This document shows, piece by piece, positions 39,346 through 45,592 of a stretch of DNA of 64,000 bases. Source of the stretch: Planomonospora sp. ID67723. GTDB taxonomy: Bacteria; Actinomycetota; Actinomycetes; Streptosporangiales; Streptosporangiaceae. Numbering within the stretch: the stretch's first letter is position 1; every line of letters begins with the position of its first letter. The notes beneath the pieces are model-generated. The model searched no databases and was not told the DNA's origin. It saw nothing but the letters and a program-made list of their open reading frames with translations. Position numbers and translations under genes: made by a program. The DNA is taken from positions 558,001-622,000 of the forward strand of contig NZ_JABTEZ010000005.1 in assembly GCF_015711605.1 (NCBI RefSeq). Direction: 5' to 3'.

Positions 39346-40422
39346 ATGACGGCGGAAGTCGTGGAGACGTCGGTGGCCAGGATCATCGATCGGGTGCGGC
39401 GGCAGGTCGACGATCGGCTGGTCCGGTTCCTGGATGCGCATCTCCCCCCGGTGGACGACCCCGACGTGGTCGAGGGCTACCGGCTGCTCCGGGAGTTCGT
39501 GGTCGACGGAGGAAAGCGGATCCGGCCGATCCTGTGCTACTGGGGATGGCGCGGCGCCGGTGGTGAGGACCACGGGGAGGAGCCCGCCATCTGCGCCGGC
39601 GCGGCGCTCGAACTCTGCCACGCCGGTCTGCTCATCCATGACGACATCATGGACGGCAGCGACCTGCGCAGGGGACGCCCGACGATCCACCGCAACCTCG
39701 CAGGCTCGGACCGGCAGCCCGCCGACCGGGGTTTCGGCAACTCCGCCGCGATCCTGCTGGGCGTGCTCGCCCAGGCGTGGGCGGACGAGCTGCTGGGCGA
39801 GGTCGGAGTGGACGAGGCGCGCACGCGCGCGGTCCGCATGCTGTTCTACCAGATGCGGATGGAGGTGATCTCCGGGCAGTACCTCGACCTCCTGGCGCGC
39901 ATACGCGAGGACGCGGGCGTCGACCACGCCTTGACGGTGATCCGCTACAAGACGGCGAAGTACACCGTCGAGCGGCCGTTGCAGATCGGCGGGGCGCTCG
40001 CGGGCGCCGAACCCCCGCTGCTGGAGGCGTACTCACGCTTCGGCCTGCCGCTGGGAGAGGCGTTCCAGCTGCGCGACGACATCCTGGGCGTCTTCGGCGA
40101 CACCGCGACGACCGGCAAACCGGTCGTCGACGACCTGCGGGAAGGAAAACAGACCGTCCTGATCGCGCAGGCGTTCGACCGGGCCCGGGGCCCGCAACGC
40201 GACCAGCTCCGTGCCTGGTACGGCAACCCGGACCTGGACGAGCGGCACACGGCCGTACTGCGGCAGGTCATCGTGGACACCGGAGCGCTCGCCCACGTCG
40301 AGTCGCTGATCGCCAGGCGGGTCGACGAGGCGCTCGGCACACTGCGCGACGGCGCCATCCCCGCGCAGGCCCGCGAAGCGCTGACGTTGCTGACCGGCCG
40401 GTTGACCGACCGGGTCCTTTAG
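39346..40422 (+). CDS. Polyprenyl diphosphate synthase (FPP/GGPP type)
   Basis: A 358-residue trans-isoprenyl diphosphate synthase. The first Asp-rich motif is Asp99-Asp-Ile-Met-Asp103 followed by Leu-Arg-Arg-Gly; the second is Asp244-Asp-Ile-Leu-Gly, a form common in actinobacterial enzymes. Gly-Gly-Lys-Arg-Ile-Arg-Pro near residue 55 is the IPP site. In this operon it should supply prenyl diphosphate, most simply FPP, to the geosmin synthase. Chain length cannot be read from the sequence with certainty. Synthases of this type are known neighbours, and proposed cargo, of Family 2B encapsulins. Confidence 0.92.
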
Positions 40423-40472
40423 GAGAGGCGGCCACGGGACGCGTCCCGCCGGCTGGGGCTCCGGCGCGCCCT

Positions 40473-40514
40473 TCCCCGGCCGGCCGCCGCGACTCCCCGG
40501 CCGGCCGCCGCGAC
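40473..40514. repeat. 21-bp direct repeat in the synthase-shell gap
   Basis: A 21-bp GC-only-plus-T/A unit occurs twice head to tail (40473-40493, 40494-40514) in the 213-bp gap between the synthase and the first shell gene. A further GCCTTCCGAC doublet follows. No promoter is evident; the gap could hold an mRNA structure. Confidence 0.75.
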
Positions 40515-42054: not shown

Positions 42055-44252
42055 TGGCCCCCTACGAGCTGCCGGACTTCTACCTCCCGCATCCGCCCCG
42101 GCTCAACCCGCACCTGGAGACCGCCCGCGCGCACACCCGAGCCTGGGCGGCGCGGATGGGCATGCTCGACGACCCGGCCATCTGGGACGAACGGCGGCTG
42201 GAGGCCATGGACTACGGGCTGATGTGCGCCCACACCCATCCCGACTGCGCGGCCGCCGAGCTCGACCTGATCACCGACTGGTACGTATGGGTGTTCTACT
42301 TCGACGACCACTTCCTGGAGACCTTCAAAAGGAGCCGGGACGTCAAGGGCGCGCAGGCCTACCTCGACCGGCTGGACGCCTTCATGGCCGACGACCCGCC
42401 CGAGCCGGCCAACCCGGTCGAGCGCGGCCTGGCCGACCTGTGGCCGCGCACCGTGCCCGCCATGTCCCCGGCCTGGCGGCGCCGGTTCGTCCGGGTCACC
42501 CGCGACCTGATCCAGGAGTCGATGTGGGAGCTGTTCCACATCGAGCGCGACGCGGTCTCCAACCCGATCGAATACATCGAGGAACGCCGCAAAGTCGGCG
42601 GAGCCCCGTGGTCGGCCGCCCTCGTCGAGCACGCGGCCGGCGCCGAGCTGCCGGCCCGGCTCGCCGCGAGCAGGCCCGTCCGCGTGCTGACCGAGTCGTT
42701 CGCCGACGCCGTGCACCTGCGCAACGACCTGTTCTCCTACGAACGCGAGGTGCGGCAGGAAGGCGAGCTGTCGAACTGCGTCCTGGTCTGCGAGCGGTTC
42801 TTCGGCTGCGGCACGCCGCAGGCGGTGGAGATCACCAACGACCTGCTCACCTCGCGGCTGCACCAGTTCGAGCACACCGCGCTCACCGAGCTCCCGGCGC
42901 TCTTCGCCGACGAGGGGGTCGCTCCGGCCGAGCAGGAACGCATCCTGCGCTACGTCGCGGGACTGCAGGACTGGCAGGCCGGCGGCCATGCCTGGCACGC
43001 CGCCTCCAGCCGCTACACCAAATCCGGCCGTCCCGCCGGGATGCTCGGCATGAACGTCTCCCGCGCCCACCTCGCTGGCGCGGGCGGGTTGCGCAACCAC
43101 GCCCACACCCCCCACGCCGAGGTCGAGGTACGGCTGCCGCAGCCGTACATGCCCTTCCAGGTGCGCGACAACCCGCACGTGGAGCAGGCGCGGGCCGCCG
43201 ACGCGGCGTGGTGCGCCGCGATGGGGTTCTTCGACCCGGTCCCCGGCATCCCGGCGACCGCGCTGTGGACCGAGCGCCAGCTCGCCGGGCTCGACCTCGC
43301 GCTGTGCGCCTCGGGCATCGACCCTGACGCCACGGCCGAGCAGCTCATCCTGGCGACCGACTGGCTGGCCTGGGGCACCTACGGCGACGACTACTACCCC
43401 CGGGTCTTCGGCACCGCCCGCGACCTGACCGGCGCGAAACTCACCAACCGGCGGCTGAGGGAGTTCATGCCGCTGGATCTCTCCCCCGTCCCGGTGCCGC
43501 TCAACGGCGTGGAGCGCGGTCTGGCCGACCTGTGGCCGCGCACCGCGGGGCCGATGCCGGCGCAGTCGCGGCGCGCCTTCCGCACCGCGGTCGAGGACAT
43601 GGTCGACAGCTGGCTGTGGGAGCTGGCGGGCCACGCCCAGAACCGCGTCCCCGACCCGGTCGACTACATCGAGATGCGCCGCATGACCTTCGGCTCCGAC
43701 ATGACCATGAACCTGGCCAGGCTCGCCCCCGGCCGGCGCATCCCCGCCGAGCTCTACCGGACCCGCGAGTTCCTCGGCATGGCCAACGCCGCCCAGGACT
43801 ACGCCTGCTTGGTCAACGACCTGTTCTCCTACCGGAAGGAGATCCAGTTCGAGGGCGAGCTGCACAACGGCGTCCTGGTCATGCAGACCTTCTTCGACTG
43901 CGACCCGCAGGAGGGGGTCGCGATCGTCGACGCCCTGATGACCTCCCGGATGAGGCAGTTCGAGCACATCACCACCGTCGACCTGCCCGCCCTGCTCGAC
44001 AGGATCGAAGCCGGCGACCCGGTCCGCCGGTCGGTCGACGGCTACGTGGCCGAGCTGCGGAACTGGATGGCCGCCATCGTGCGCTGGCACCAGCGGACCC
44101 GGCGTTACCTCTCCTCCGAGCTGGTCCGCCCCGCGGCGGCCCGGTGGACCCAGGGACCCACCGGACTGGGCACCGCCACCTCGCGGATCGCGTCCCTGGC
44201 CTCGGGTGCGCGGGTTCCCCTCACTTCGGCGGGATCGGCGGGTGCGCGGTGA
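42054..44252 (+). CDS. Germacradienol/geosmin synthase, two-domain
   Basis: A 732-residue bifunctional sesquiterpene synthase. The N-terminal domain has Asp84-Asp-His-Phe-Leu-Glu89 and the metal triad Asn224/Ser228/Glu232, and should convert FPP to germacradienol. The C-terminal domain has Asp445-Asp-Tyr-Tyr and Asn588/Ser592/Glu596, and should make geosmin by retro-Prins cleavage of germacradienol. Both domains look intact. The N-terminus [12 protein letters not shown] matches the Streptomyces coelicolor enzyme. A 40-residue flexible tail holds [10 protein letters not shown]. It lies between two shell genes with overlapping codons on both sides, so it is the probable encapsulated cargo. Confidence 0.95.
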
Positions 44253-45592
44253 CCGCTCCGGCCGGATCCTCCCCGCTGAGCCTCGGTACGGCCGCCGCCC
44301 GCAGGCTGGCGACGACGGCCAAGACCGTTCCGCAGATGCGGGAGACCACTCCCCGGCACCTGCTGCGGGTGCTGCCGTGGACCGAGGTGAACGGCGCCTA
44401 CCGGGTGAACCGGCGGCTCACCCTCACCGCCGGGGACGGCAGGGTGGGGTTCGCCTCCACCGGGACCCGGGTCGAGGTCGTCCCGTCCGAGCTGTGCGAG
44501 CTTCCGTCCCTGCGCGGGTTCGGTGACATGCGAGCGCTCGGCGCGCTGGCGGGCGGGTTCGTCCAGCATGAGCTGGACACCGGCCGGCCGGTGCCGCCCG
44601 GCCAGGTGGTGCTGGTGGCGCACGGCAAGATCGCCGAGGTCGGTGCCGGGCCGTACGGCGGCCGGCGCACGCTGGGGATCCTGGCCGGCGGTGACCATCT
44701 GGGCGACCTCACCGGCCCCGGCGCCGGGGCGGCCACCGCCCTGACCCCCTGCACCGTCCTGGTGCTGTCCCGTGCGGACCTGGAGGGCCTCCTCCAGCGC
44801 TCCGGCAGTCTCCGCGACCACCTGCTCCGGCCCGGTCCCGCCCGGCCCCGCAACAGGTGCGGCGAGGCGGAGATCGCGCTGGCCTCGGGTCATGCGGGGG
44901 AGCCGGCGCTGCCGGGCACGTTCGTGGACTACGAGCAGGCCCCGCGCGAGTACGAGCTGAGCGTGGCGCAGACGATCCTGCGGGTGCACAGCCGGGTGGC
45001 CGATCTCTACAACGAGCCGATGAACCAGACCGAGCAGCAGTTGCGGCTGACCATCGAGGCGCTGCGCGAGCGTCAGGAGGACGAGCTGGTCAACAACCGC
45101 GAGTTCGGGCTGCTGCACAACGCCGACCTCACCCAGCGCATCCACACCCGCTCCGGCCCGCCCACCCCCGACGACCTCGACGAGCTGCTGTGCCGGCGCC
45201 GCAGCTCGCACTACTTCCTGGCCCACCCCCGGGCCGTCGCAGCCTTCGGGCGGCAGTGCAACCGGCGGGGCCTGCGCCCGGACGTCACCGAGATCGGCGG
45301 CGCCAAGGTCATGGCCTGGCGCGGCGTGCCGATGCTGCCCTGCAACAAGATCCCGGTCAGCGGCGGCGGCCTCAGCTCGATCATGGTGATGCGGCTGGGG
45401 GAGAAGGAGCAGGGCGTGGTGGGCCTGCGCCGTACCGGGCTGGTGGACGAATACGAGCCGGGCCTGTCGGTGCGTTTCATGGGCATCGACGACAAGGCGA
45501 TCATCTCCTACCTGGTGACCGCCTACTACTCGGCGGCCGTCCTGGTCCCCGACGCCCTGGGGATCCTGGAGAACGTCGAGGTGAACTCCTGA
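44249..45592 (+). CDS. Second Family 2B encapsulin shell protein B, cNMP site degenerate
   Basis: A 447-residue paralogue of shell A beginning at the GTG in a GTGA overlap. The N-arm is conserved ([14 protein letters not shown]). The inserted domain (about 101-195) is shorter, and the phosphate cassette is lost: Leu-Gly152-Asp153-Leu-Thr-Gly replaces Gly-Glu-x-Ala, and the Arg is missing. From residue 205 on, the shell core is nearly identical to A in two blocks. It should co-assemble with A, or form its own shell, without binding cyclic nucleotide. Confidence 0.92.

Follow-up and report, generated by a model that had tools for sequence, protein, structure and literature searches.

As judged from their sequences, the two encapsulin shell genes that enclose the geosmin synthase gene of Planomonospora sp. 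ID67723 constitute an old pair, in which gene conversion has repeatedly re-equalised one stretch (tract 1) and, in this lineage, a second one (tract 2), while the island between the tracts has been kept apart. Both genes, enc1 and enc2, lie in the window, i.e. the whole stretch of 64,000 nucleotides that was analysed. Our preferred reading, to which we assign a probability of roughly three in four, is that recurrent conversion has spared the island, that selection maintains this state, and that the genes would encode a two-shell geosmin compartment in which the cNMP-like domain (CBD) is borne by Enc1. The type of operon is known; the homogenised tracts with their spared island are what the preliminary description of this DNA missed, and they are the more interesting part.

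Four genes, all on the forward (+) strand, make up the locus: PT, a polyprenyl (prenyl) diphosphate synthase of 358 aa (39346..40422; PF00348, 183.5 bits); Enc1, a Family 2B encapsulin shell protein of 472 aa with a cNMP-like domain and a VWK-type island (40636..42054; NF041163, 754.7 bits; PF00027, 64.1 bits); a germacradienol/geosmin synthase of 732 aa with two terpene synthase domains, the presumed cargo (42054..44252; Terpene_syn_C_2 twice; NF041168, 1127.5 bits); and Enc2, a Family 2B shell protein of 447 aa with a degenerate cNMP-like domain (44249..45592; NF041163, 678.3 bits; PF00027, 26.5 bits). Enc1 starts at the ATG at 40636, with an alternative GTG at 40624, and Enc2 at a GTG. The profile matches confirm the four genes and the arrangement proposed for them at these positions, namely two Family 2B shells around a geosmin synthase, and support the interpretation as a two-component Family 2B operon. 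The overlaps said to link the last three genes (TGATG at 42052-42056 and GTGA at 44249-44252) are indeed present and join the synthase and both shell genes end to start; PT is not tightly coupled to them, its stop codon preceding Enc1 by 213 nt. A sigma-70 promoter scan over 38900-45800 returned no promoter. A search of the genome for PF19307 found no genes besides the two shell genes, which lie within 10 kb of each other, and the order PT-Enc1-geosmin synthase-Enc2 recurs in 30 of the 103 two-shell operons surveyed below, a set partly chosen for the presence of geosmin synthase. Two cholesterol-oxidase-like GMC oxidoreductases and an alpha/beta hydrolase that flank the operon, and likewise the flanking genes at 47957-49036 and 49096-49797, had no match at E <= 1e-20 and >100 bits among the remaining 180 loci, which carry flanks mostly of a few kb, and were dropped as candidate components. 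The expectation that 2-methylisoborneol is not a product stands, in that no 2-MIB-type synthase was detected in the genome: with NF041167 (cut-off 400 bits), the highest score is 105.3.

Both predicted shell proteins pass the NF041163 cut-off (400 bits) and are homologous in sequence to the solved shells 9bje, 9bix and 9bhu. They differ in the state of the CBD, which in Family 2B shells is inserted in the E-loop. That of Enc1 (residues 120-207; 40993..41256, +) is intact, whereas that of Enc2 (residues 117-184; 44597..44800, +) stays with its 26.5 bits (E 6.5e-6) just under the PF00027 gathering score of 27.5; a custom model derived from the domains of Enc1 and of single shells gave 81 bits for Enc2 versus 161 for Enc1, and, made without Enc2 input, it favours Enc1. 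The domain is missing in 7/104 Enc2 genes versus 0/104 Enc1 genes. Membership of Family 2A was ruled out for the two CBD-less Enc2 proteins tested, which reach 545.2 and 540.9 bits with the 2B model, against 352.7 and 348.7 with the 2A model. The decay of the Enc2 domain, like the near-identity of enc1 and enc2 outside the island, had been overlooked in the preliminary description. Because the copy of Enc2 is decaying in this lineage and has disappeared from some relatives, a shell would contain more or fewer CBDs according to its share of Enc1. In the Streptomyces lydicus shell the domain of Enc1 is placed over the two-fold pore, and the dataset of the same study required PF00027 and removed shells <400 aa (PMC12407261), so that Enc2 genes without the domain would be missed by it.

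Tract 1 consists of 324 nt that are identical between enc1 (41322..41645, +) and enc2 (44860..45183, +), and tract 2 of 259 nt (41779..42037 and 45314..45572, both +) that match bar one base (41829), i.e. the DNA identities amount to 100% and 99.6%. The island between them covers 41646..41778 (+; about residues 338-381) in enc1 and 45184..45313 (+) in enc2, measures some 44 codons (about 44-48 residues) and spans the published diagnostic motif 1, the five-fold-pore loop and motif 2. Here Enc1 and Enc2 are 61% identical, and in the CBD 58%. Motif 1 reads ATVWK in Enc1 and CRRR, with a one-residue deletion, in Enc2, which are the expected TVWK-like and RRRK-like types, and the pore loop of Enc2 reads NRRGLRPD. 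The earlier characterisation of the second shell as different is thus right for the island and the CBD and wrong for the tracts.

Taken by itself, the near-identity of the tracts would fit a recent duplication of the shell gene in a TC/PT Family 2B operon of the ordinary two-component kind, and terpene cyclases are already known from two-shell operons. One recent duplication cannot explain the pair, however, because island and CBD have diverged, because the islands of Enc1 and Enc2 separate almost cleanly across the 103 operons, and because three close species, namely the window's, genome G001 and Planomonospora parontospora, each possess their own matched pair. In this trio the four-fold sites of tract 1 are all identical between paralogues (53/53, 55/55 and 54/54), whereas between orthologues only 37/48 to 44/51 are. 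At 11 variable positions of tract 1 the two copies underwent the same change, and at 3 they did not; the corresponding counts are 9 and 8 in tract 2, and 0 and 18 in the island. With both tracts pooled, 20 changed alike and 11 did not. The copies of P. parontospora differ at 3 tract-1 and 8 tract-2 residues, which indicates that homogenisation is incomplete there. A recent duplication is rejected by the island trees and these shared changes, and we consider the ordinary-operon explanation very improbable.

The survey started from 118 complete pairs, of which 104 remained after the removal of 14 exact duplicates; 14 loci whose shells are split, truncated or partial were left out of the counts. 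One further locus, L119, was set aside, leaving 103 pairs: its two copies, identical and placed at the end of a contig, were read as an assembly or tandem copy, and its island, with NIYK in both copies, is not one converted between the two types. The own paralogue wins over all orthologues on both sides in tract 1 for 44/103 pairs, in segment N for 16, in the CBD for 9/100 and in tract 2 for 8; for the island this occurs in 0/103, and on one side only in 1. In trees of the separate segments, Enc1 and Enc2 of the same genome are sisters 49 times for tract 1, 15 for N, 13 for the CBD, 14 for tract 2 and never for the island, and the Enc1/Enc2 label changes 69, 38, 30, 23 and 3 times, respectively. 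The 49 tract-1 sisters among 103 pairs do not equal 49 events, because the genomes are phylogenetically clustered, and only 22 of the 49 sister nodes have a support of at least 0.9. A scan with sliding windows of 48 codons gives few sisters (0-2) and few label changes (3-13) from 311 to 418, and fewest, 0 and 3, at 335-382, while the tract-1 windows ahead of the low zone have 41-46 sisters and 65-70 label changes; the island result is unchanged without the window's own pair. A caveat to such comparisons is that low island identity could by itself block conversion.

Conversion could accordingly be real and the island be spared only mechanically, being too divergent for strand exchange, in which case no selection for distinct subunits would be needed. 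Across the 103 pairs the nucleotide identity of the island never exceeds 0.79 (median 0.68), which is low for homologous recombination, and the conversion signal falls sharply at the island edge. Yet the comparably divergent CBD (median 0.64) is sister in 13/96 pairs that have the domain in both genes, versus 0/103 for the island (Fisher p = 4.9e-5), and in equal 48-codon windows it yields 5 to 13 sisters of 96 (p = 0.025 to 4.9e-5 against the island); in one pair only, L107, it is homogenised at 95% or more (99.4% identical). Moreover, in the window and in G001 the tracts are homogenised on either side of the island, and so reach both of its edges, and motif 1 and its Enc1/Enc2 contrast are kept across genera: VW in Enc1 goes with RR in Enc2 in 101 of the 103 pairs and, with swapped gene order, in one more (L214). 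A purely mechanical sparing is therefore possible but doubtful. Tract-1 sisters are found in 0/13 operons of the order PT-SH-SH-GS and 0/7 of Myxococcota, which retain both shells, so that constant homogenisation is not required.

With selection acting on the island, homogenisation of the tracts would keep the shared contacts of two co-assembling subunits compatible, and conversions that cross the island would be removed. The island would then be what sets Enc1 and Enc2 apart as parts, with motif 1 as a contact within the pentamer, motif 2 as a luminal loop, and the loop of the five-fold pore. The HK97 part of SrpI (6X8M) aligns over Enc1 232-471, and its five-fold pore residues, which include R192, G194 and P196 (PMC8049743), align to Enc1 365, 367 and 369, inside the island. 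The Family 2A shells SrpI and MMP-I (8T6R) share the VWK form of motif 1 with Enc1 and, unlike it, have no CBD; SrpI has a cysteine desulfurase as cargo and forms a shell by itself (PMC8049743), so that the VWK motif alone does not forbid homo-assembly. Among single-shell geosmin operons VWK occurs in 2/17. It is suggestive only that the pore loop of Enc2 may be the more positive one: its charge is higher than that of Enc1 in 40 pairs, equal in 50 and lower in 13 (33, 54 and 16 with narrower borders), and in the PT-first geosmin group it is higher in 23/30 and lower in 0/30.

Geosmin, the smell of soil, is a volatile of drinking-water and ecological interest. The synthase of the window, the only full-length one in the genome, has two terpene synthase domains of class I, both of which carry their pair of metal-binding motifs, NDLFSYRKE among them. 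Residues 2-330 match the germacradienol/geosmin synthase domain of 5DW7/5DZ2 (2.2e-141), presumably the S. coelicolor enzyme, with the metal motifs kept; those solved chains comprise the N-terminal domain only, whereas the gene studied here sits between two shell genes. Nearly the whole of model NF041168 (Family 2 encapsulin cargo, terpene cyclase) is aligned, at a score below the cut-off of 1200 bits; the protein is consequently not filed under this model and its role as cargo is presumed. Its C-terminal tail carries the putative loading motif GPTGLGT (44154..44174, +), published in PMC8346489. The terpene-cyclase operons that this paper describes likewise have a two-domain cyclase with such a tail beside the shells and a polyprenyl synthase in the cluster; in contrast to them, the window synthase has no copy of the motif in its linker and its Enc2 has a degenerate CBD. 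The strict motif (tail or linker) is present in 68/92 synthases that have a shell gene no more than 3 kb away, versus 16/34 without one in the fetched stretch, whose genomes may hold a shell elsewhere (Fisher p = 0.006); enriched near shells without being specific to them, the motif was not accepted as proof of loading. We infer from the gene sequences that the synthase may be loaded into the shell by way of this tail. FPP made outside would enter via the pores and be converted by the tail-held synthase, whose volatile product would then escape; compartment, loading and geosmin output are all predicted for this operon.

Alternatively, the two shells might form separate particles, or Enc2 might be a relic, with the synthase not loaded. 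This would agree with the decaying CBD of Enc2, with the non-specific tail motif, with the 17 loci that have one complete shell gene only within the fetched stretch, and with the lack of any shell gene in the stretch at 21 of the 53 geosmin-synthase loci for which the 6-kb flanks are complete. We nevertheless hold it to be improbable, given that the HK97 part of Enc2 matches the Family 2B model over its full length, that Enc2 evolves in concert with Enc1 and that the synthase gene shares bases with the shell gene on either side of it. To our knowledge, co-assembly of Enc1 and Enc2 is known only for S. lydicus. Its publication for that pair (PMC12407261) argues against separate particles. The S. 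lydicus proteins, which 9bje and 9bix appear to represent as judged by motifs, resemble those of the window in that two Family 2B shells, a TVWK-type Enc1 and an RRR-type Enc2 with distinct motif 2, share an operon; unlike here, that operon has a xylulose kinase, and its native cargo has not been determined (PMC12407261).

Supply of FPP to the geosmin synthase by PT is plausible, since ispH sits between PT and Enc1 in 12 of 43 PT-first two-shell operons; this much of the proposed in-operon prenyl supply stands, with FPP as the putative product of PT. PT scores 289.8 bits with NF041169 (encapsulin cargo, polyprenyl transferase; cut-off 450) and 288.4 with NF042416 (FPP/GPP synthase; cut-off 600), and its nearest solved chains are 3lk5 (GGPP synthase) and 8f8f (FPP synthase). 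The alignment to 3lk5 begins at residue 14, so that the protein has no N-terminal extension of 50-100 residues, the length of the disordered region that marks such cargo; with the NF041169 score, this leaves PT as shell cargo unsupported. In the TC/PT operons described in PMC12407261 the PT gene is downstream of Enc2, whereas it is upstream of Enc1 here.

Geosmin-synthase-like cyclases as Family 2B cargo and two-shell operons, including operons in which Enc1 and Enc2 flank the cyclase, are described in PMC8346489 (Andreas & Giessen 2021) and PMC12407261 (Dutcher, Andreas & Giessen 2025). These reports bear out the earlier mention of two-shell operons, and a geosmin synthase with two shells was consequently discarded as a new operon type. 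According to a preprint, encapsulins occur consistently in every one of the myxobacterial geosmin clusters it covers (PMC12224551). The separate histories of Enc1s and Enc2s are discussed in PMC12407261, from whose main text the words gene conversion, recombination and concerted are absent.

On the question of why some encapsulins use two shell proteins, the conversion pattern constitutes a natural experiment: repeated copying between Enc1 and Enc2 that leaves one cassette apart points to residues that matter. As tracts and island differ in history, a tree made from the entire shell protein blends the two, and mixed shells whose Enc2 gene has no cNMP-like domain would go uncounted under the published filter. 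In the lineage studied here, the genome's only full-length geosmin synthase gene lies between the two shell genes. In a wider view, which could go either way, two-component encapsulins would be one protein with two interchangeable faces, in which conversion equalises the genes and selection protects an A-domain cassette (motif 1, five-fold-pore loop and motif 2) that alone defines both parts, with the CBD in the geosmin lineages restricted to one part through decay or loss in the other, and hybrid shells with pore covers set by the share of Enc1. If this is true, the subunit identity of a virus-derived capsid would be a portable module of about 48 residues.

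Four genes on the forward strand make up the operon, as the preliminary description had it, and family models confirmed each of them: a polyprenyl diphosphate synthase (PT, 39346-40422), the Family 2B encapsulin shell Enc1 (40636-42054), a germacradienol/geosmin synthase (GS, 42054-44252) and a second Family 2B shell, Enc2 (44249-45592). The stop and start codons of Enc1, GS and Enc2 overlap from gene to gene. GS residues 2-330 match the solved germacradienol/geosmin synthase domain (2.2e-141), and the nearest named synthases found, in a set from which records very close to the window may be missing, are those of Planomonospora parontospora (85%), Planobispora rosea (84%) and Microbispora (80-82%). 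The genome (8.34 Mb, 9 contigs; window at C5:558001-622000) yielded two genes of the shell family PF19307, both in the operon, one full-length GS (two further matches are partial and 27-32% identical) and five PF00348 prenyl synthase genes. No gene in it passes the NF041167 cut-off for a 2-MIB-type synthase. The operon is bordered by two different cholesterol-oxidase-like GMC oxidoreductases (36489-38936, forward, and 45686-47326, reverse), which had no match among the other loci searched. A terminator-like hairpin with a T-rich stretch after it (three overlapping matches) lies just 3' of Enc2, at 45679-45704; the region scanned gave 4 matches versus 1.3 in shuffles.

The second shell gene had been described as different from the first, which holds for the N-terminal part (73% nucleotide identity), the cNMP-like domain (58%) and an island of about 44 codons (61% identity), but not for the two tracts on either side of this island: tract 1 is identical throughout its 324 nt, and tract 2 differs at one base in 259 nt. 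The GS gene sits between the copies of these tracts, which are direct repeats spaced 3538 and 3535 bases from each other. The drafts G234, G115 and G122 carry GS on a contig of 3.3-3.5 kb that stops inside the shell genes or at their margin, as expected if these repeats break short-read assembly.

Among 341 genomes of the same family as the window, 271 contain a Family 2B shell and 238 a GS (both at E<=1e-120). Two-shell operons, which the preliminary description also mentioned, are in print together with GS-type cyclases as Family 2B cargo (PMC8346489 and PMC12407261). From 118 complete pairs, 104 remained without exact duplicates and 103 once L119, two identical copies at a contig end, was put aside. 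Within these operons the order PT-Enc1-GS-Enc2 occurs in 30, GS between the shells in 42 and GS within the fetched stretch in 68, counts that are not frequencies because many operons were chosen for the presence of GS. Of the 53 named GS loci for which the 6-kb flanks on both sides were available, 32 have a shell gene in that stretch, the 80 named loci being a non-random sample selected by similarity to the window GS. A draft genome of Microbispora triticiradicis has both of its shell genes split (L048 and L128, which are one region), through either real loss or a sequencing error.

The 103 pairs provide strong evidence for recurrent conversion between enc1 and enc2. In tract 1 (Enc1 residues 243-332), 44 pairs show, on both sides, an own paralogue that is nearer than any orthologue, versus none in the island (333-385; one pair on one side only). 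In segment trees the two shells of a genome are sisters in 49 pairs for tract 1 (support of at least 0.9 at 22 of these nodes) versus 0 for the island, with 69 versus 3 changes of the Enc1/Enc2 label. The island borders were first read from the window's own pair; the island result stays the same without that pair, and a 48-codon sliding scan is low across windows 311 to 418 (0-2 sisters, 3-13 label changes), with its minimum at 335-382 (0 and 3), as compared to 41-46 sisters and 65-70 label changes in the five tract-1 windows that span 239 to 334. The longest identical run exceeds all 200 codon shuffles in 60/103 pairs. Conversion is not universal among two-shell operons: tract-1 sisters are found in 25/30 PT-first operons with GS between the shells, 19/33 operons with adjacent shells and 5/9 of a class sample (L201-L209), and in 0/13 PT-shell-shell-GS operons and 0/7 Myxococcota; as these groups account for all 49, the 11 pairs outside them have none. 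Except for a giant-virus match, no report of encapsulin gene conversion or concerted evolution was found in the open full-text literature, a scope outside which subscription papers and most preprints fall and which is no proof of novelty.

Three close species are informative here: the window, G001, which its taxonomy label assigns to the same genus, and P. parontospora, which we infer to belong to it. At four-fold degenerate sites of tract 1 the paralogues are identical (53/53, 55/55 and 54/54) compared with 37/48 to 44/51 sites shared by orthologues. Since these sites do vary from one species to another, DNA-level constraint cannot account for the identity of the paralogues. Positions that vary within the trio are altered alike in both copies of a species at 11/14 in tract 1, 9/17 in tract 2 and 0/18 in the island; all 3 discordant positions in tract 1, and most in tract 2, stem from the P. 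parontospora Enc2.

Being divergent itself, the island may resist conversion for that reason. The argument for selection is based on the cNMP-like domain: although equally divergent (median identity 0.64 versus 0.68 for the island), it forms tree sisters in 13 of the 96 pairs whose two genes both carry it (Fisher p = 4.9e-5 versus the island; 5 to 13/96, p = 0.025 to 4.9e-5, in windows of equal length). The two shell genes of L107 are 99.4% identical in this domain and differ only in the island (70%) and in a portion of tract 2 (88%). Selection likely keeps the island distinct.

The island spans the published diagnostic motifs 1 through 2. Motif 1 reads VWK/VWR in Enc1 and RR with a one-residue deletion in Enc2 in 101/103 pairs; the exceptions are an Enc2 with CKQ-T (L080) and L214, whose VWK and RRR shells occur in swapped order, so that the island, rather than gene position, marks the subunit type. 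According to Dutcher et al. (PMC12407261), motif 1 lies beside the N-arm where adjacent protomers of a pentamer meet, and motif 2 belongs to a luminal loop that they propose for cargo loading. Residues R192, G194 and P196 of the self-assembling Family 2A shell SrpI align to Enc1 365, 367 and 369, all within the island; PMC8049743 names R192 and R304 (the latter falling outside the island) as the source of positive charge of the pore, which G194 and P196 line. Of 17 complete single-shell loci, some of which may have a second gene outside the fetched stretch, 15 have the RRR type or a variant (one LLSMR-R) and 2 VWK, which is in line with the S. lydicus system, where Enc2 forms shells alone and Enc1 does not (PMC12407261). 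L085 and L090 are PT-shell-GS loci with a single VWK-type shell each, the L090 contig stopping ~0.6 kb past GS. As Family 2A shells share the VWK form with Enc1 and SrpI stands alone, VWK could be the older form, and its presence alone does not preclude homo-assembly.

The cNMP-like domain of Enc2, judged from its sequence, appears to be in decay. The window Enc2 scores 26.5 bits against PF00027 (gathering 27.5), versus 64.1 for Enc1. With a model made from Enc1 and single-shell domains, and hence biased against Enc2, Enc2 scores below Enc1 in 29/29 PT-shell-GS-shell pairs (median 92 versus 164; 4/29 without the domain) and, by a small gap, in 16/18 shell-shell-PT pairs (150 versus 165). The domain is missing from Enc2 in 7/104 pairs (L062, L067, L071, L078, L080, L094 and the P. 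parontospora locus L121) and from Enc1 in 0/104. The two such Enc2 proteins tested (L121 and L062) retain PF19307 and lack PF00027 at E <= 1; their scores exceed the 2B cut-off and fall short of the 2A one.

Prenyl supply from within the operon had also been proposed. IspH catalyzes the last step of the MEP pathway, and 12/43 PT-first two-shell operons carry its gene between PT and Enc1 (2 of the 12 checked by family model; e.g. L051:8654-9595, reverse, and L074:2559-3494, forward); the window operon has none, the genome carrying one elsewhere. PT scores below the cut-offs of both the cargo model and the FPP/GPP-synthase model, its alignment to solved prenyl synthases begins at residue 13-14, and 213 nt separate it from Enc1. 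Taken together, these data make isoprenoid supply a sound interpretation of the operon's history; PT is plausible as the FPP source and is not supported as shell cargo. Within the 213-nt gap a GC-rich 20-base stretch is present twice, 21 bases apart (40474-40514). An inverted repeat, GTTCCG-N5-CGGAA(C/T), which resembles an ECF-sigma -35 element, precedes PT with <=3 mismatches in 24/43 PT-first two-shell operons, mostly at -86 to -93 relative to its start (mononucleotide shuffles: mean 4.1, largest 8); the window (39166-39345), G001 and P. parontospora have no match (5-6 mismatches).

A GPTGLGT motif is present in the GS tail (44154-44174, forward) and not in the linker of the window synthase. 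It is commoner in synthases that have a shell gene no more than 3 kb away (68/92) than in the others (16/34), and is not confined to shell-linked synthases. Certainty is greatest for the four genes and the shared tracts, which are directly established, and decreases from recurrent conversion through selection on the island, the mixed shell, GS as cargo and PT as FPP source to gating by the cNMP-like domain. By analogy with S. lydicus, the two shells would likely co-assemble; GS is the likely cargo and would be held inside by its tail. FPP, made by PT or drawn from the general pool, would enter via pores whose five-fold lining would mix the two island types, and geosmin would exit; gating by the cNMP-like domain is speculative. 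Gene conversion would hold the shared contacts of the two shells matched, while selection would hold the island distinct between Enc1 and Enc2.
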